Shown here: one piece after another, positions 9,054 to 18,720 of the stretch | Layout of the letters: every line of letters starts with the position of its first letter | How positions within the stretch are numbered: position 1 is the first letter of the stretch | Assembly: GCA_016215705.1 (NCBI GenBank) | Contig: JACRIR010000150.1 | Span: forward strand, 1-64,000 | Reading direction: 5' to 3' | Length of the DNA: 64,000 bases | Source: Candidatus Poribacteria bacterium | GTDB lineage: Bacteria > Abyssobacteria > SURF-5 | Made by a program: the position numbers and the translations under genes | Notes under the pieces: model-generated | The model's input: only the letters and a program-made list of their open reading frames with translations | What the model was told of the DNA's origin: nothing | Database searches by the model: none

Positions 9054-9207
9054 TTGAAGGTGCGAATTCATTCGCACGGAATTGCATGAATCGCATAGAA
9101 GACAGCATCGGGACATGTATGGCCGAATAAATTCGGCCCCACGGCGTTGGGCATGATCTGGTTGTAGTCGCCAAGATATTCACACAGGGTTGCATGGAAA
9201 AGAAAAT

Positions 9208-9912
9208 ATGATTTCGGTCGTCATACCGGCCTATAACGAGGCCGAGTGTTTGCGGCCTTTGACGGATGAAGTACTCGGCGTGATGCGCGGCCTCGGGCAG
9301 GAATTCGAGATTCTGTTTGTGGACGACGGCAGCAGCGACGGCACTCGTGAACTCATGCGCCAACTTGCCAAGGAGCACTCCGAGGTTCATTTCGTCGGCT
9401 TCAAGAAGAACCGTGGGCAGACAAGCGCGATGGCGGCCGGGTTCAAACATGCGAAGGGCGACATCATTGTGACGCTCGACGCCGACATGCAGAACGACCC
9501 GCGCGATATTCCGCGACTGATGGAGAAGCTCGATCGATACGATGTTGTGTGCGGCTGGCGCAAGAAGCGGCACGACAGCCTCTTGCGGAAGGTCTCGAGC
9601 CGGATCGCCAATTATGTGAGAAACAAGTTGAGCAATGAAGAAGTCGTGGACGTCGGCTGCTCGCTCAAAGTTTACAAGAGAAAATGCGTGGATGACCTGA
9701 AACTTTTCGAGGGGATGCATCGTTTTCTTCCGACTCTGGTCAAGTTAGCGGGCTACACTGTTGTCGAGGTTCCCGTCAACCATCGTCCGCGCAAGCTTGG
9801 CACGTCGAAATACGGCGTTTGGAACAGAGTGTTCAGGGCGTTCGGAGACTTGCTCGCCGTCAGATGGATGAAGAAGCGATACATACGCTATGAAATAGAG
9901 GAAGAGCGGTGA
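9208..9912 (+). CDS. Glycosyltransferase family 2 (DPM1/ArnC-like)
   Basis: MISVVIPAYNEAECLRPLTDEV...ILFVDDGSSDGT...VTLDADMQNDPRDIP. Confidence 0.9.
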   Translation: MISVVIPAYNEAECLRPLTDEVLGVMRGLGQEFEILFVDDGSSDGTRELMRQLAKEHSEVHFVGFKKNRGQTSAMAAGFKHAKGDIIVTLDADMQNDPRDIPRLMEKLDRYDVVCGWRKKRHDSLLRKVSSRIANYVRNKLSNEEVVDVGCSLKVYKRKCVDDLKLFEGMHRFLPTLVKLAGYTVVEVPVNHRPRKLGTSKYGVWNRVFRAFGDLLAVRWMKKRYIRYEIEEER

Positions 9913-9968
9913 GTTGGAATGATGAGTGCGGAATGCTGAATGATGAAACCTGAAATGGAGGAGGAGTG

Positions 9969-10328
9969 ATGAACCAGGTCGGGACAGCGATTCAAAACCT
10001 TGTGGAAAAACTCTGGTTCAACCTCACCCAGATGACCCCGACTCAAATCGCATGGTTTTGCGTCGGGTTATTCGCGCAACTCATTTTTTCGATGCGGTTC
10101 TTGGTTCAATGGATAGCCTCTGAACGGCGAGGGGAAAGCGTTATCCCAGTAACGTTTTGGTATATGAGCTTGGTCGGAACAACGTTATTATTTGCCTATG
10201 CAGTCTATCGTCGTGATCCCATCTTCATTCTAGGTCAGGCATTCGGGTCGGTCGTTTACACACGTAATCTGATGCTGATATACAAGCGGCGGACATCTCC
10301 GGTGAACGCAGGACACGGCTCAACTTGA
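9969..10328 (+). CDS. Lipid-A-disaccharide synthase N-terminal-domain (LAB_N) membrane protein
   Basis: AWFCVGLFAQLIFSMRFLVQWIASERRGESVIPVTFWYMSLVGTTLLFAYAVYRRDPIFILGQAFGSVVYTRNLMLI matches the LAB_N pattern. Confidence 0.88.
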   Translation: MNQVGTAIQNLVEKLWFNLTQMTPTQIAWFCVGLFAQLIFSMRFLVQWIASERRGESVIPVTFWYMSLVGTTLLFAYAVYRRDPIFILGQAFGSVVYTRNLMLIYKRRTSPVNAGHGST

Positions 10329-10615
10329 ATCTGTGAGGGGGGATTAGGATTAGCGCAGCGCGGAGAAACCGCAACCAAACAAGAAGAAGCAAGGGAATCC
10401 GCTGATTTCGCCGATTTGCACAGATTCTGGGAAGAAGAAAAAAGAGTTGGATCACAAATTACGAATCTTGCGAATTACACGAATAAAGAAGTCCGCCAAT
10501 CTAGACTGATTTGCGCAGATTTCAGGTAAAACAAGAAGAAATCACGATGGAAATTCATGATTTCGAACGTGAATGGTGTGGGGCGAACACAAGGTTACCC
10601 CCTACAATCAACTAG

Positions 10616-12283
10616 ATGCATTCGTTGATTTCAAAAACGCGTCCTTATTTTAACCTGCTGGTATTGCTTGCCGTTTGCTATTTCCTTTTTTCCTTCCGAA
10701 TAGGCGCACATGACTTATGGAGCCCCGATGAGCCGCGATACGCGCAAGTGGCGCGTGAGATGCTCGAGACAGGCGATTGGATAGTTCCTCATCTCAATGG
10801 CGAGGTGTACCAGGAGAAGCCGCCGCTTTACTTTTGGCTTGTCGCATATATCTCGAGGCCTTTAGGGGACGTGAATGAGACTACTGCCCGGTTTCCGTCC
10901 GCGATCGCGGCGACCTTGATTGTTCTTGGGACATATCTCTTTGGCCGCAGGATTCTGGGGGAACGCGAAGCGTTCTTGGGGTCTCTCATTGCAGCCACGA
11001 GCGCGCAGTATTTGTGGATCGGTCGTATCGGCGTCATCGATATGCTGCTGGCGCTCTCGATACTCGCCTCTCTCATTTGTTTCTATTTCGGCCACGCAAA
11101 GAGACGCCCTCCGCTTTATGTGGCAGGCTATCTGTTTCTGGTTCCAGCCGCATTGTCGAAAGGGCCTGTGGGAATCGCCGTCCCTGTCGTCGTAATGCTC
11201 ACATTCCTGGCGGTCGAGATAGTCTTGAGGAAAGAAAGCGGCAAGAAGCAGTTGGCGTGGTTCATGGGGTGCACGATTATCGGGTTGGTCCTTGTCGGAG
11301 TCTGCGTTGGGCCATGGTGGCGAGCAGCCTACGAACGGAGCGACGGAGTTTACGGCTCGCTGTCACTGCTCAAACAGCAAACCGAGGGACGGATGTTCCA
11401 GTCGTATTCGCATCGGCAACCGATATATTACTATTTGATGCAGATTCTTTGGCAACTCTTTCCATGGACCGTGTTTCTTCCTTTGTCCGCATATGCCATA
11501 AAAAGAGAGGGTAAGCTTCGGGAGAATCAGGGACTCCGCTTCCTTCTTGTGTGGTTTCTGAGCGTCTTCCTATTTTTCACGCTCATTTCGGGCAAGAGAA
11601 GCCAGTATATTCTGCCGTCGTTTCCTGCGGCGGGATTGATTCTTGGATGGGCGCTAGTGAATTCGAATCCGGACGAAGGCCGACTGAGTGAAAGGCGCAA
11701 ATTCGGGATTCCGCTGTTACTTCTCTCTTTGGGCTTTGCCGGCAGTCTCATAGCTGCAAGTGCGGCGGCATATCTGCGGAGGCCGGAGTATCTTACGACT
11801 GCATTGGGGACGCTCGTTGTCTCTACCGCAATCCTTGTCGTTTTGATCCGCCATTGTCTTAGTCGCCCACCGAGAACAGCCCTAGCCTGTCTCATTGGCT
11901 CCACAACCTTGCTTGTCGCGGTTCTCTTCGGCTACGGCGCGCCGCTCGCTGACAGGTACAATTCTGCGCGCCCATTTTGCAGCAGTGTGTTGGCGGCAAC
12001 AGGGGCAAGCGACAGTTTATTTTTCTACAAGATATATCGGCCGAATGTGCACTTTTATATGCATCGTCGTATGTCGCGGCTTGAATCCGGCGCCGACGTG
12101 AAAGAAGCGCTAGACAAATCGCGGAGAGTTCTGCTGATTCTTCAAAATAGAGACAGAGTTGCGCTCGACCTTGGGCCATCCTATAACACCGAAGAAGTCG
12201 CTCGTGCCCGAATAGGCAGCCGTGACCTGATTTGTGTCGCCGTCAAGCTTGCGCCCGCCATTGGACCAATTGCGATCAACTGA
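10616..12283 (+). CDS. GT39/ArnT-like GT-C glycosyltransferase
   Basis: GAHDLWSPDEPRYAQVAREMLETGDWIVPHLNGEVYQEKPPLYFWLVA, multi-TM. Confidence 0.88.
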   Translation: MHSLISKTRPYFNLLVLLAVCYFLFSFRIGAHDLWSPDEPRYAQVAREMLETGDWIVPHLNGEVYQEKPPLYFWLVAYISRPLGDVNETTARFPSAIAATLIVLGTYLFGRRILGEREAFLGSLIAATSAQYLWIGRIGVIDMLLALSILASLICFYFGHAKRRPPLYVAGYLFLVPAALSKGPVGIAVPVVVMLTFLAVEIVLRKESGKKQLAWFMGCTIIGLVLVGVCVGPWWRAAYERSDGVYGSLSLLKQQTEGRMFQSYSHRQPIYYYLMQILWQLFPWTVFLPLSAYAIKREGKLRENQGLRFLLVWFLSVFLFFTLISGKRSQYILPSFPAAGLILGWALVNSNPDEGRLSERRKFGIPLLLLSLGFAGSLIAASAAAYLRRPEYLTTALGTLVVSTAILVVLIRHCLSRPPRTALACLIGSTTLLVAVLFGYGAPLADRYNSARPFCSSVLAATGASDSLFFYKIYRPNVHFYMHRRMSRLESGADVKEALDKSRRVLLILQNRDRVALDLGPSYNTEEVARARIGSRDLICVAVKLAPAIGPIAIN

Positions 12284-12314
12284 CCAAGAAATACGAGGAT
12301 TAGAGGCAATTCAT

Positions 12315-14669
12315 ATGGAGCCGGAGAACTACAGAAGAAGTTGGTTAATCGTTGCTGTTCTCACCATTGTGCTGGCTTTTGCTTTTCAAGGTTCGCGGGG
12401 TTTGTGGGAGCCGGACGAGGGGCGCTACGTGCGGTGCGCATATGAGATGGTGAAGACGGGCGATTGGGTAACCCCTCAGATAAACTACCAGCCTCATTTC
12501 ACCAAACCGCCGATGACGTACTGGCTGATCGCAAGCGGTCTCTCTCTGGTCGGAATGAATGAATGGGGAGCGCGCGCGTTTCACGGGTTGACGTTTGCGC
12601 TCACGGCCCTGCTTGTGGGATTTCTGGGCAAGAAGATGTGGAATGACCGCGTGGGTATGATGGCGTGCCTCATTTATGCGACCACTGTTCTTCCATTCCT
12701 GGCGGCTAACACAGTGACGACGGACACAATCCTCGCTTTTTTCGAGACGCTGGCAGTCGTCTGTTTCTGGTTGAGCAGGCGCACACGTGAAGAGACTGTT
12801 ACCAGTTCGGTGTGGGCGCTTGCAATGTGGTTTGCTCTGGGCCTTGCGTTTCTGACAAAGGGGCCAGCGGGACTCCTTCCGCTTGCTGCAATCATCGTTT
12901 ATACCGTGACAGTAAGAGACCGGAAGCGATTGCCCGCTTTTGTCACGCTGATTGGAATAATGGTCTTTGCAGTTACCGCGCTTCCATGGTACGTTGCCGT
13001 TGTGCGACAGCATGAAGGTCTTCTATCGTATTTTTTCGGGCACGAAGTAGTCGGCCGGATCGTTACGGCGGAGCACAGGCGGAATCCGAGTTGGTTCGGG
13101 CCCATCAAGGCTTATCTGCCTACATTGACGATAGGCGCATTCCCATGGGCGGCGTACTGGCCCGTTCTTCTTCGGCGCAGCAAACCTCAAGTCTTTCGCC
13201 TTTCGTGGTGGAAAGGTCTTCGTGAGCGACCCAAAGCTCTGTTTCTCGTTCTGTGGTTCGGTATTCCTCTGACTCTGTTGAGTTTCTCGAGTTCGAGACT
13301 TCCATTCTACGTGCTGCCACTGTTTGCCGCGCTTGCTCTGGCGACAGCACGGGGCCTGAGTCTTTGTCTTCCGGAAAGAGTCTCCGAGATTCTGTCTTTC
13401 CGAGGCAGGGGTGGAATTGCCGTGGCTCTCTTGCTTGTTGCGCTGATCGGCTCAAAAGGCGTCGCCGCTCATATCGCATGGAAGAGGGACAGTCGGGCCA
13501 TGTGGAATGGAATCAAAGACGCCATTCATAGGCGGCCCGGGAACACACCCTATGAAATAGTGGTCGTTCACGAGAACTATGACGGGCTTGAGTTCTACAG
13601 CCACGCCAACGTGGAGTTTGTTACGACACGAGAAAGAACATCTCCGGCATTTGTGCATGACGAAACTTTGCGTGAAGAAATCGCTGAACTCGATGCGAGC
13701 CATTACGCGCCGATGTTTCTGGCAAAAGCAAAGCATATGTCGACGATTCTGCCGGAATTGAGAAGGCGAGGACTCGGCTACTCCGTTGCGGATGCCCCTT
13801 TCGAGCATAAGCTCATACTGTGCGAGATCGGCGCGCGGAGGGATGATGTTGTTCGTTTGGCGGCGATAGGGGATGCGGGAACAGGGGATTCGCGTCAAAC
13901 GATGATAGGGTCCGTTCTGTACCACGTCGATCAGGACACTTCGCTTGACGGGATTTTACTGCTCGGAGACAACATTGTCGGATGGAATGAAACCGGATTG
14001 CCGGAAGACGCCTACCGAGAATACTTCGAAGCTCCGTATGCGCCCCTGCTGAGCAGCGGGGTTCCTTTCTATGCAGCCCTTGGCAATCATGATACTCGCG
14101 AGGGAGGAACCTATCGTCAGACGCTTTATCCCTTGTTTAACATGGAAGACAGACGCTACTACTCGCGAGTTTTCGGAGACGAAATGGTGGAGGTATTCTT
14201 TCTGGATTCGAACACGATCAAAAGGGACCCGCAACAAGTCGCATGGGTGAATGACTCGTTGAGCCGGAGCCGCGCCGCATGGAAAGTTGTCGCTCTTCAT
14301 CACCCTATTTATTCTACAGCAAAGGAGTATCCTTCCGATCCTTCAATGATTGAGCTTCTCGAGCCGATACTGGTCAAGAATGGAGTTGATCTGGTTCTGT
14401 GTGGGCACAATCACATTTATGAGCGGCTTCGCCCCGTTCATGGTATTCATTACATTACGGCAGGCAGCGGCGGCAAACTGAGTCGCGGCGGTCTTGCGCC
14501 GAATTCTTCAATGAGGGCTGCGGGGAATGACGAGGAGAATGTTGCGCTTGTGCTTCAGTTCGACGCTGAAACCTGCCGTTTTACCGCCTATGGTCCAAAC
14601 GAAGAGGTTGTGGATCAGGGGAAGATAACACATGTCCTGCCCGCCAAAACCGCTGCTCAGTTGAATTGA
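12315..14669 (+). CDS. GT39/ArnT-like GT-C glycosyltransferase fused to a C-terminal calcineurin-like metallophosphoesterase
   Basis: N-terminus GLWEPDEGRYVRCAYEMVKTGDWVTPQINYQPHFTKPPMTYWL; C-terminus LAAIGDAGTG, LLLGDNI, AALGNHDTREGG, VALHHPIYS, LVLCGHNHIYER, one continuous ORF. Confidence 0.9.
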   Translation: MEPENYRRSWLIVAVLTIVLAFAFQGSRGLWEPDEGRYVRCAYEMVKTGDWVTPQINYQPHFTKPPMTYWLIASGLSLVGMNEWGARAFHGLTFALTALLVGFLGKKMWNDRVGMMACLIYATTVLPFLAANTVTTDTILAFFETLAVVCFWLSRRTREETVTSSVWALAMWFALGLAFLTKGPAGLLPLAAIIVYTVTVRDRKRLPAFVTLIGIMVFAVTALPWYVAVVRQHEGLLSYFFGHEVVGRIVTAEHRRNPSWFGPIKAYLPTLTIGAFPWAAYWPVLLRRSKPQVFRLSWWKGLRERPKALFLVLWFGIPLTLLSFSSSRLPFYVLPLFAALALATARGLSLCLPERVSEILSFRGRGGIAVALLLVALIGSKGVAAHIAWKRDSRAMWNGIKDAIHRRPGNTPYEIVVVHENYDGLEFYSHANVEFVTTRERTSPAFVHDETLREEIAELDASHYAPMFLAKAKHMSTILPELRRRGLGYSVADAPFEHKLILCEIGARRDDVVRLAAIGDAGTGDSRQTMIGSVLYHVDQDTSLDGILLLGDNIVGWNETGLPEDAYREYFEAPYAPLLSSGVPFYAALGNHDTREGGTYRQTLYPLFNMEDRRYYSRVFGDEMVEVFFLDSNTIKRDPQQVAWVNDSLSRSRAAWKVVALHHPIYSTAKEYPSDPSMIELLEPILVKNGVDLVLCGHNHIYERLRPVHGIHYITAGSGGKLSRGGLAPNSSMRAAGNDEENVALVLQFDAETCRFTAYGPNEEVVDQGKITHVLPAKTAAQLN

Positions 14670-14809
14670 CACCCCCTGGACGCTATGGTATCATCACGAA
14701 AGAAGGGGGAAAACGGCGAAAAGGGAAGAGAGAAGTAAAGGATCAAGTTTCTTAATCGTGAGAATCTGCGAAATCTGTGGATAGATGGTCCTATATAGTC
14801 CTGGTTATT

Positions 14810-15559
14810 ATGAAGAAATTCAGCTATGAGGGCGTGAACAAGCAGGGTCGCGTAGTGACCGGCTCGACTTCGGCGGCGAACGAGCAAGAGGTCAAGGCCC
14901 AACTCAAGAAATTCGGGTTCAGCAATGTGCGAGTTCAGGAGGAAGAGACAACTCCTGAGCAGACGATGTCCTCGGGGAAGGTGTCGGGGTCGATGACTTC
15001 TGCCGCTCGCGTAAAACAGCCCGCACAGCCAGCCGAGGCTCCGCCACAAGATTTGGTTCAGAAACTGGTGGATGGCGACATCGAGATCGGCGAGCCAATC
15101 ACGGAAGAAGAAGCCGAGCGCGATATGTGGTTCCGGGCCGAAGCGCTGGCCCGAATTCGAAAGGCGCGGCGGCGCGAGAGAATCGCGATGGTTTTCGCGA
15201 TCGTTCTTGTAGGCTCGATAGCAGCGTATTTCATTTATGACAAGGTCACTGAAATACCCGCCCCCCAGCCTCGAATAATCATGCGGACCAGCAGCGAGAT
15301 GTTGAGTTTCAAAGACGTGTACGTAAAGGGACCTGATCTCGTGTTCGTTGTTTTCTCTCGGAACTGGAACGGGAACGTCCGCGTGGATTTCCAAGCATGG
15401 GACGCATTTGACAACCGCATAGATTTCGGCACCGCGCGTCTGGGCTTTATCGGCGAACACTATGGGGGGGCGCCAGAGAAGAGCGGAACATTCAAGCTAA
15501 AGAAGTCCAAGTTCTACGAAAGAATAGAGCTTCTCGTGAGCGGAGACGAGGGAAAGTGA
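14810..15559 (+). CDS. Single-TM membrane protein with a GspF/PilC N-terminal-like segment
   Basis: MKKFSYEGVNKQGRVVTGSTSAANEQEVKAQLKKFGFSNVRVQEEE resembles the T2SSF N-terminal 'Y.G.d..G....G...A.s..ea...L...G'; one TM (IAMVFAIVLVGSIAAYFIY). Confidence 0.55.
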   Translation: MKKFSYEGVNKQGRVVTGSTSAANEQEVKAQLKKFGFSNVRVQEEETTPEQTMSSGKVSGSMTSAARVKQPAQPAEAPPQDLVQKLVDGDIEIGEPITEEEAERDMWFRAEALARIRKARRRERIAMVFAIVLVGSIAAYFIYDKVTEIPAPQPRIIMRTSSEMLSFKDVYVKGPDLVFVVFSRNWNGNVRVDFQAWDAFDNRIDFGTARLGFIGEHYGGAPEKSGTFKLKKSKFYERIELLVSGDEGK

Positions 15560-15677
15560 TGCGAAGAGCGAAGTGTGAAGGGGAAGAGTAAGGGGGAAAA
15601 GGGCCATCCAATTTTGGATTGAAGCACAGGAGAGGAAACTGAACAGAAATTCTGCAGGGTATGGGGAAAACTCTACC

Positions 15678-16109
15678 ATGATTAGCATGGATTCGAGAAG
15701 GAGTTTTGTCCGACTAATTGTTCTTTTGTGCGCTCTAGCTGTGACAGGCGGGTGCAGCCTGCAGGCGCGTGCGCATCGCTCCCTGAAGAACGTTGTTCAC
15801 AAAGAGGTTGAACAATTCAATAAGTACCATCAGCGCCAGGTGAAGCCCAACGTATATGAGAGCGGAGGCCAGTTCTATCGTATTTACCATGAAAGAACTG
15901 ACCCCACCGTGACCATGAGGCGCACCAATTCTATTGACACGCCTTACATAGCGACCCTCGTTTTCACGGAGAATATCTATCTGACGCGGCGTCACCCGAC
16001 CGGCAAGGAAAGCAAGCAAGACGTGCATTTCATTCTCAATAGCTCGAACAAGCGCGAGATCGTATATACTTTCGTGAACGGCATGTGGAAGAGAAAAGAA
16101 ACATATTGA
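15678..16109 (+). CDS. Putative lipoprotein
   Basis: Signal MDSRRSFVRLIVLLCALAVTGGCSLQ with a lipobox-like VTGGC. Confidence 0.6.
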   Translation: MISMDSRRSFVRLIVLLCALAVTGGCSLQARAHRSLKNVVHKEVEQFNKYHQRQVKPNVYESGGQFYRIYHERTDPTVTMRRTNSIDTPYIATLVFTENIYLTRRHPTGKESKQDVHFILNSSNKREIVYTFVNGMWKRKETY

Positions 16110-16203
16110 AGCAAGGGCGAAACGGGCAAAAGGGGAGACTGGGACGAAAGGAGCAAGAGGAAAGGGAATCGAAAAACACTCCAATCTCAATCTTGCCTCT
16201 AAC

Positions 16204-17829
16204 ATGACAGACTGCGGAATCGAACCAGATTCGACAACTCCCGAAAACCTGCCAAAGATTTTTGTGGCGGTCATGGTAATGGTTTTCACACTCTTTCTTT
16301 TCCGTATCGGCTCGAAGGATTTTTGGACCGCCGCCGAGGCGCGCACGGCTCTCATCGCACAGTCCATGATAAGCTCAGGCGATTGGGTTGTGCCGCGAAT
16401 CAATGGCGAACCTTACCTCACCAAGCCCCCTCTCTACCATTGGCTGGTCGCTCTTCTGGGCGCGGGAGGCAGAACAGTGACTGAGCAGGCGGCCGTCCTC
16501 CCCGCCGCGCTATCTGCAATTGCATGTATTGGCGCAACGATGTGGCTTGCCGCAAGAATCTTCGGGTCATCGGCGGGTCTATGGTCCGGCGTTGCGCTCG
16601 CCACGATGCCGCGTTTTTTCTGGCAAGGGCGCGTTAGCGAAATAGACATGACGCTCACGCTTTCCATCGTCCTGTGCATGCTGGCGTTTCATCACCTGCG
16701 CGCCTCGGCGACTTCGCGACAAAAGATATTGTCGACGATTTTCTTTTCTCTGGCGCTTTCGGCGACAGCCATGTTGAAGGGACCACCGGGGATTCTCGTG
16801 GCGCTGTTCACGGTTGTCGTCTACGGTGTTCTTAGACGCGAACGCACTATTTGGGGTATAGGCAGGTTTCTGCTTGGCCTCGCCATATTTCTCGCCCTGG
16901 TAATACCGTGGCCGGTCGCCGTGATTACACGGCTTCCGTCGGCCCTCGCCTTCTTCTTTCATGAGAGCACGGTTAAGATGTATAGCCCCGAGGCGCACCG
17001 CCACTGGATTTTCTATTATGTGCCGCAGATTATCGCCGGAGCGTTTCCGTGGGTATGCTTCCTGCCGGCGGCCCTTTGGTGGCCGCGACTGCGGGACAGA
17101 AGGTCGGAAGCGTTTTTGCCGGTGGTATGGGCCGGAGTCGTTCTCGTCTTTTTCACAATGGTGAAAACAAAACAGTCTCATTATGTCATGCCGCTCTACC
17201 CGGCGCTTGCGATCCTGGTTGGAGGCGCGCTTTCCTCGCTCACCGAAAGCGGCTCTGAATTCGGCAGAACGCGGCTTGGGCGATACACCATGGTAGTATT
17301 CCTGGCGGGGATTGTATCCATATCAATCGCTGTGCCCATTGGGATCGCGGTCAGGTTGTCGGCGTCTCCTGCGCAAATCGCATTGTGCTCGACGGGTGTC
17401 ATATTTGCGCTTGCATCAGTCATCCTTTACAAGAGAGGCAAGGTAACCGAATCCGTGTGTGTGGGCGCAATGTTCATGTTTGTGTGTTTGCTGTTCGCCA
17501 TAGTTATCGCCGTGCCGTTGGTGAACAAAGAGATGTCGCCGCGGCCTTTTGCGCACGAGGTGGCAAGGCGCGTGCCGGTCGACGCTTCGCTTGGAATGCT
17601 TGATGATGTGCGGCCCCACGTGCTGTATTATGTGGGCAGGGAAGTCAAGCCGGTGAGCGCATCCGCAGTTGAGGGCTTTCTGTCAGCCGGTGGAAGTGGT
17701 TCATATCTTGTTATACCCGAGAAGGCTTTTAGTCAGCTTGCGGAAAGGGAACGCCTGGAAGTCGTTGTTTCGTACAAGGATTTCAAGTATCAGAATCATA
17801 AGTACTTGTTGATTACCCATAAGAAATAG
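16204..17829 (+). CDS. GT39/ArnT-like GT-C glycosyltransferase
   Basis: SKDFWTAAEARTALIAQSMISSGDWVVPRINGEPYLTKPPLYHWLVAL, multi-TM. Confidence 0.87.
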   Translation: MTDCGIEPDSTTPENLPKIFVAVMVMVFTLFLFRIGSKDFWTAAEARTALIAQSMISSGDWVVPRINGEPYLTKPPLYHWLVALLGAGGRTVTEQAAVLPAALSAIACIGATMWLAARIFGSSAGLWSGVALATMPRFFWQGRVSEIDMTLTLSIVLCMLAFHHLRASATSRQKILSTIFFSLALSATAMLKGPPGILVALFTVVVYGVLRRERTIWGIGRFLLGLAIFLALVIPWPVAVITRLPSALAFFFHESTVKMYSPEAHRHWIFYYVPQIIAGAFPWVCFLPAALWWPRLRDRRSEAFLPVVWAGVVLVFFTMVKTKQSHYVMPLYPALAILVGGALSSLTESGSEFGRTRLGRYTMVVFLAGIVSISIAVPIGIAVRLSASPAQIALCSTGVIFALASVILYKRGKVTESVCVGAMFMFVCLLFAIVIAVPLVNKEMSPRPFAHEVARRVPVDASLGMLDDVRPHVLYYVGREVKPVSASAVEGFLSAGGSGSYLVIPEKAFSQLAERERLEVVVSYKDFKYQNHKYLLITHKK

Positions 17830-17958
17830 GCGAATGGGGAAAAAACCAAAAAGAAGAGAGATTGCTTCGCTCGGCTCGCAATGAGGGCTTATTTGAGACT
17901 CGTTTCTTTCACAATTAGCCTCGCCGCAGGCAGGGTCGGCTGCTCAGAATGACAACCA

Positions 17959-18720
17959 TTGTTGGAATCTTCAAGAGGGAAAATGGCCGGCAGAGAAAAT
18001 AAGAAACGCACAGGATTCTTTCGGGCCTCGTTTTATGTCGCGCTCATATTCCTGTACACGTTCGCGTTAGGAGTTCCGTGTCTCATAGTCACGCTTTTCC
18101 AGCCGCGCGGAGAAGTGAGTTACTGGTTCATACGCACGTGGGCGCGTCTTCTGCTGTGGACGTGCAGGGTGAGAATCGAGGTCAGGGGGCTCGAGAACGT
18201 TCCCCGCGAGGGTACTTTCATCATCATGTCCACCCACAACAGCCATTTTGACATACCAGTCTTAGTGAAAGAGATACCGAGACAATTCAGGATCGTGGCG
18301 AAGAAAGTGCTTTTCAAGATTCCGGTTTTCGGATGGATAATGTCGGCCGCCGGGTACGTGAGCGTGGACCGCGGCGACCAGAAGCAAGCTTTCGCGAGTC
18401 TTGACAGGGCGGCTGAACGCGTCAGGTCGGGAATGCCTCTTTTGATTTTCCCCGAGGGTACCCGGAGCGTGGACGGCTCGCTTGGCGCATTCAAAAAGGG
18501 GGGGTTCGTGCTCGCGACAAAAGCCAGAGTCCCGATTGTTCCCGTTGTGATCGAAGGAACATACCATGTGCTTCCGAAGACAACATGGCGCATATGCCCG
18601 GGCGCAGTGAAGGCAACGTTTGCCGAACCCATCGACACTTCAGCTTATTCCTACGAGACAAAAGAACAACTGATGGAGAGGGTTCGCGCAGCGATGCAGA
18701 GTGTGACGCCGCGCGAATAA
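17959..18720 (+). CDS. 1-acyl-sn-glycerol-3-phosphate acyltransferase (PlsC-like)
   Basis: IIMSTHNSHFDIPVL (degenerate HX4D: NSHFD), LLIFPEGTRSVDGSLGAFKKGGF, VPIVPVVIEGTY. Confidence 0.9.
   Translation: MLESSRGKMAGRENKKRTGFFRASFYVALIFLYTFALGVPCLIVTLFQPRGEVSYWFIRTWARLLLWTCRVRIEVRGLENVPREGTFIIMSTHNSHFDIPVLVKEIPRQFRIVAKKVLFKIPVFGWIMSAAGYVSVDRGDQKQAFASLDRAAERVRSGMPLLIFPEGTRSVDGSLGAFKKGGFVLATKARVPIVPVVIEGTYHVLPKTTWRICPGAVKATFAEPIDTSAYSYETKEQLMERVRAAMQSVTPRE

Follow-up and report, generated by a model that had tools for sequence, protein, structure and literature searches.

A GT-C glycosyltransferase fused to a purple-acid-phosphatase-like phosphoesterase: one phosphatase type with exchanged transferase heads

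Surface charge is set by the phosphates of lipid A and of other envelope molecules. In the stretch of 64,000 nucleotides analyzed here (the window), which comes from an uncultured LPS-making bacterium, one gene encodes both a GT-C glycosyltransferase and a metallophosphoesterase (MPE), and this raises the question of whether the two reactions belong together and, if so, on which substrate. As a single protein carries both candidate activities, a swap of phosphate for sugar can be tested from a single gene. In the open-access literature that we searched, no description of a fusion between a GT-C/GT39 enzyme and a metallophosphoesterase was found; the architecture is thus not described there, the component families being known.

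Domains and conserved residues of the fusion protein

The gene occupies positions 12315–14669 of the plus strand as a single uninterrupted frame of 784 amino acids plus a stop codon. Upstream of the ATG at 12315 the frame is open back to a GTG at 12234 but, as this GTG overlaps the preceding gene, which ends at 12283, the ATG is the likelier start. Pfam families were found in both parts, all above their gathering cut-offs: PMT (1.7e-23, aa 14–229, 83.9 bits against 22.7) and PMT_2 (2.7e-16, 60.6 bits against 26.1) in the N-terminal part, and Metallophos, PF00149 (3.3e-15, aa 514–702, 57.5 bits against 21.5), in the C-terminal part. The central claim of the original prediction, namely that a GT-C enzyme and a phosphoesterase share one uninterrupted reading frame, is therefore confirmed. 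Its two-part layout also stands, although its border does not: the GT part, predicted at about 540 residues, ends near residue 505 with its periplasmic tail included, and the MPE starts near residue 512. The multi-TM, GT39/ArnT-like GT-C part thus covers aa 1–505 (12315–13829) and closes with a soluble, periplasmic tail like that of ArnT (about aa 390–505); a GT-only homologue in genome G043 ends at the equivalent point. The purple-acid-phosphatase-like MPE domain covers aa 512–772 (13848–14630). The Pfam scan and the AlphaFold2 model (23-row alignment, pLDDT 79, pTM 0.60) that had been suggested as checks recovered a GT39/ArnT fold and a PF00149 MPE resembling purple acid phosphatases (PAPs), and all of the predicted motifs could be located.

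The GT part matches ArnT (PDB 5ezm) over aa 9–354 with an E-value of 1.5e-31 in a PDB sequence search, and ArnT also tops the fold search with the model (5f15, Foldseek E 4.7e-16, TMt 0.66). When residue roles are taken from the ArnT literature (PMC7801869), ArnT D55/E56, K85, D158 and K203 align with the identical residues D34/E35, K64, D137 and K182 of the fusion protein. D34-E35, the counterpart of the catalytic pair that ArnT has in its first periplasmic loop, lies in the PDE motif (12414–12419), and K64 opens the KPP motif (12504–12512). By alignment and model, the N-terminal part is thus a complete GT39/ArnT-fold GT-C domain in which the key residues are kept. The protein shares with ArnT the fold, the catalytic Asp/Glu, the KPP lysine, the periplasmic soluble tail and a nearby gene resembling a GT2 donor synthase, but differs in the extra MPE domain and in the residue ahead of the KPP lysine, which is Thr63 here and Glu in ArnT. 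We rejected an assignment as ArnT proper, the enzyme that transfers L-Ara4N onto lipid A, as the protein scores 190 bits against the ArnT equivalog NF009784 (NCBIfam), far below the cut-off of 567.

The MPE part matches human TRAP/purple acid phosphatase (2bq8, 2e-15), and the model superimposes on rat PAP (1qfc) with a Foldseek TMt of 0.79. The motifs GDAG, GDN, GNHD, HHP and GHNH, from metal motif I to metal motif V (13869–14414), supply the expected ligands D520, D552, N591, H662, H698 and H700. Under the five-block definition of purple acid phosphatases (PMC6515233), four of the five blocks are present; in the remaining one, the tyrosine of GDxxY is replaced by valine (GDNIV). The G060-type fusions and the MPE of genome G001 have likewise lost this tyrosine, and all five unfused homologues that were checked keep it. 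The sequence of the domain is therefore PAP-like rather than that of a true purple acid phosphatase by this definition. In comparison to the mammalian-type enzyme (TRAP, ACP5), with which it has the MPE fold and four motif blocks in common, the fusion MPE differs in this Val for Tyr and in its membrane tether to a GT-C enzyme. The exported MPEs that Acidobacteriota and Cyanobacteria carry in unfused form belong to the same MPE family (about 31–45% identity) but lack the GT-C domain and, in the examples checked, keep the PAP tyrosine.

Gene neighborhood and occurrence of the fusion in other genomes

Envelope genes surround the fusion gene, in the order GT2, LAB_N, GT39, fusion, two proteins, GT39 and acyltransferase; the GT2, LAB_N and GT39 genes are, like the fusion gene, on the plus strand. 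The GT2 protein (9190–9912; Pfam GT2 2.3e-35; NCBIfam ArnC 7.5e-51, below the cut-off) resembles the ArnC/DPMS polyprenyl-phosphate sugar synthases and is the likely donor maker. It is followed by a small LAB_N membrane protein (9966–10328; PF07578 1.8e-32) and by an unfused GT39 paralogue directly upstream of the fusion gene (10616–12283); a further unfused paralogue, the third GT39 gene, is found at 16204–17829. Neither of the two proteins between the fusion and the third GT39 gave a significant Pfam match at 1e-3. Window positions 9190–18720 can be considered an envelope-glycan island comprising the GT2, LAB_N, three GT39 proteins and the acyltransferase, and this island is embedded in a cluster of purine-synthesis genes (guaB, guaA ... 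purB, purC, purF, purM, purL, purQ, purD). A 260-aa protein at 14777–15559, starting KFSYEGVNKQGRVVTGSTSAANEQEVKAQLKKFGF, has DUF7616 as its only, weak Pfam match (0.0012); by eye, we presume a resemblance to the N-terminal repeat of GspF/PilC.

The window organism's phylum is represented by three genomes in our collection, and the fusion is absent from both of the others. In G001 the gene order is as in the window, but there is neither a GT head nor a third GT39, and the MPE (50% identity) stands alone; its N-terminus is a signal anchor, that is, a single membrane anchor. As G001 carries a syntenic MPE without a GT, covalent coupling is not obligatory there. The original prediction had set the reality of the fusion against its absence from close relatives; the absence is what we found, both in the phylum and at the syntenic site of G001, and the fusion is nonetheless real, as it occurs in more distant genomes.

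Scanning the contigs of the genome collection with the whole protein gave no matches. A scan with a two-row MPE alignment yielded 138 relatives, of which 80 loci were kept: 78 unfused and two fusions, L045 and L071. L045, from G060, is a fusion of 783 aa with 42.6% identity to the window protein over 765 aa, and the same genome has a second full-length fusion of 820 aa, both being collinear with the window protein at about 41–43% identity. L071 encodes 755 aa with a degenerate head. Extending the search, as had been recommended for related genomes, we found the fusion in 4 of 14 genomes of the phylum of G060 (one frame-broken and one ended by a contig end), and polytopic GT-C–MPE proteins in 7 of 40 genomes of the phylum of G061, probably Sumerlaeota (some ended by contig ends). 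A sample of 386 genomes across the domain revealed no further fusion at E 1e-17, and two long MPE frames, in G411 (698 aa) and G273 (898 aa within the sequence examined), were rejected as GT-C fusions. In G064 the fusion gene (L140:5462–7917) is interrupted by one frame break where the MPE begins, owing to a draft error or a pseudogene; two natural genes were rejected as an explanation, as a single reading-frame break in the MPE accounts for the split.

Exchange of the transferase head

The MPE tree splits 13 of the 14 fused MPEs, together with that of G001, from 79 other MPEs (96/90). The one fused MPE outside this group is the degenerate L136, which has a very long branch; G001 falls within the window/G060 group (100/95). 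The GT tree, in contrast, separates the window/G060-type heads (100/98) from the Sumerlaeota-type heads (100/100), and a single clade for the GT39 heads is rejected by the AU test (p 1e-4, or 1e-11 without the long rows). Moreover, in G113 a GT87-type head (2.6e-21) sits on an MPE of the fusion type (L156:5431–8115), that is, the head has been exchanged. The transferase heads therefore have at least two GT39 origins and, once, a GT87 origin; as the MPEs group together while the heads have several origins, the MPE is the constant part and the GT-C head has been exchanged. That GT-only proteins of G043, G113 and G132 are nested among the window/G060-type heads, and that the G001 MPE stands alone, suggests that head and MPE can also come apart. 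The trees were midpoint-rooted and contain several long branches, and any count of gains and losses drawn from them would be provisional.

Most heads for which the N-terminal motif region is available retain the catalytic Asp and the KPP lysine. The heads of L071 and L153, however, have lost the PDE catalytic pair while their MPEs are intact, and in L136 (6794–9283, G061) degeneration affects the motifs of the head as well as the metal motifs of the MPE, although full length is kept; its product is possibly a non-catalytic paralogue. In one of the two G060 paralogues (L135:8233–10695), the GNHD motif of the MPE reads GNQD, so that the catalytic His is lost.

Proposed coupling of phosphate removal and sugar transfer

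We propose that the protein is a bifunctional enzyme of the inner membrane, with its active sites on the periplasmic side, which would remove a phosphate from, and add a sugar to, one envelope glycolipid. The GT domain would take the sugar from a polyprenyl-phosphate sugar, probably the product of the neighboring GT2, and the tethered MPE would hydrolyze a phosphate ester on the acceptor that it shares with the GT (or on the phosphorylated sugar); the loss of the phosphate and the capping with a sugar would then happen together. This proposal is tentative, and we give it somewhat less than an even chance. Both active sites are probably periplasmic, given the topology of ArnT, whose periplasmic soluble domain has its counterpart just ahead of the MPE, the anchored G001 homologue and the single N-terminal hydrophobic segment of most unfused homologues, and the predicted placement of both domains on the outer side of the inner membrane is, as an expectation, supported on these grounds. 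For the functional coupling that had also been predicted, it is the recurrence that argues: as one MPE type was repeatedly fused to different GT-C heads, the two reactions are suggested to belong together, and this repeated joining is a strong clue to partnership. LpxC is present in 12 of the 13 genomes searched, so that the hosts are able to produce lipid A; the acceptor would therefore most likely be lipid A or the LPS core, and lipid A, which the original prediction gave as an example, is our best guess. The donor context in the window consists of the GT2 and LAB_N genes. In G140, the neighbors of a fusion are a homologue of the GT2 (41% identity) and a VTT/DedA protein; as DedA proteins are undecaprenyl-phosphate (Und-P) flippases (PMC12893004), this neighbor fits a polyprenyl-phosphate sugar donor.

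Several observations count against coupling, namely the G001 MPE without a GT, the intact MPEs on the degenerate heads of L071 and L153, the degeneration of both parts in L136, the GT-only homologues nested among window-type heads and the fact that LAB_N is not universal in the hosts. Indeed, the main rival, which we consider somewhat unlikely, holds that the MPE is a general exported phosphatase, like its unfused homologues in Acidobacteriota and Cyanobacteria, anchored by whichever membrane protein joined it, the two activities being uncoupled on one substrate. It is favored by the single-helix anchor of the syntenic G001 MPE and by the heads that lost their catalytic pair under an intact MPE. 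A single hydrophobic segment at the N-terminus is found in most of the unfused homologues, and the available flanks of the 78 unfused loci are free of GT39-type genes; as a whole, this MPE family is therefore not tied to GT-C enzymes. An indifferent anchor is, however, at odds with the presence of a GT-C head, of at least two GT39 origins plus GT87, in every fusion examined, and with the conservation of catalytic residues in most heads. That the fusion itself arose from an assembly or frameshift artefact has a negligible chance: the genome is a draft of 270 contigs and both phylum relatives lack the fusion, but the frame is uninterrupted, and the collinear G060 homologues and further fusions in independent genomes refute a misjoin.

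Other readings change the substrate. As the original prediction had also allowed, the target of the MPE might be the lipid carrier, in the form of polyprenyl phosphate, polyprenyl pyrophosphate or a phosphorylated polyprenyl sugar; the MPE would then control carrier recycling or donor maturation. The G140 neighbors are consistent with this, as is the dephosphorylation of Und-PP by the lipid A 1-phosphatase LpxE (PMC6581854). Und-P is, however, already released by GT-C transfer, and its hydrolysis would waste the carrier. Moreover, the bacterial Und-PP phosphatases known to us are PAP2 or BacA proteins and none is a PAP-like MPE, so that we regard this reading as decidedly unlikely. It is still more improbable that the GT glycosylates exported proteins in a PMT-like manner, with the phosphatase trimming a phosphorylated glycan or unrelated periplasmic phosphoesters: the Pfam family is PMT and GT39 includes the protein O-mannosyltransferases, but ArnT is the only solved relative by sequence and comes first in the fold search.

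The proposed coupled reaction has a known logical counterpart. In rhizobial lipid A, separate enzymes remove phosphates and add GalA, whereas for Aquifex, whose lipid A is also capped with GalA, the lipid A phosphatases are unidentified (PMC7663294). The rhizobial pairing of LpxE/LpxF with RgtF/RgtD, a phosphatase and a GT-C transferase on the outer face of the inner membrane, is a logical analogue of the fusion, but its activities reside on separate proteins rather than on one. LpxE and LpxF belong to the PAP2 fold and not to the MPE fold, and no PAP2 domain, their hallmark, was matched among the Pfam hits of the fusion protein. A wider reading, which we think unlikely, is that uncultured LPS bacteria have a class of bifunctional envelope enzymes built from a single phosphatase module and interchangeable GT-C heads; these would swap phosphate for sugar on lipid A or another glycolipid, and would supply the lipid A phosphatase where LpxE/LpxF are missing.

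As to other partners, LAB_N was found in 8 of 13 genomes only and was thus rejected as an obligate partner of the fusion. In the Sumerlaeota genomes G112 and G113, a histidine kinase/response regulator pair adjoins the fusion (L154:1474–3710 and L156:8169–10285), the two response regulators being 68% identical.
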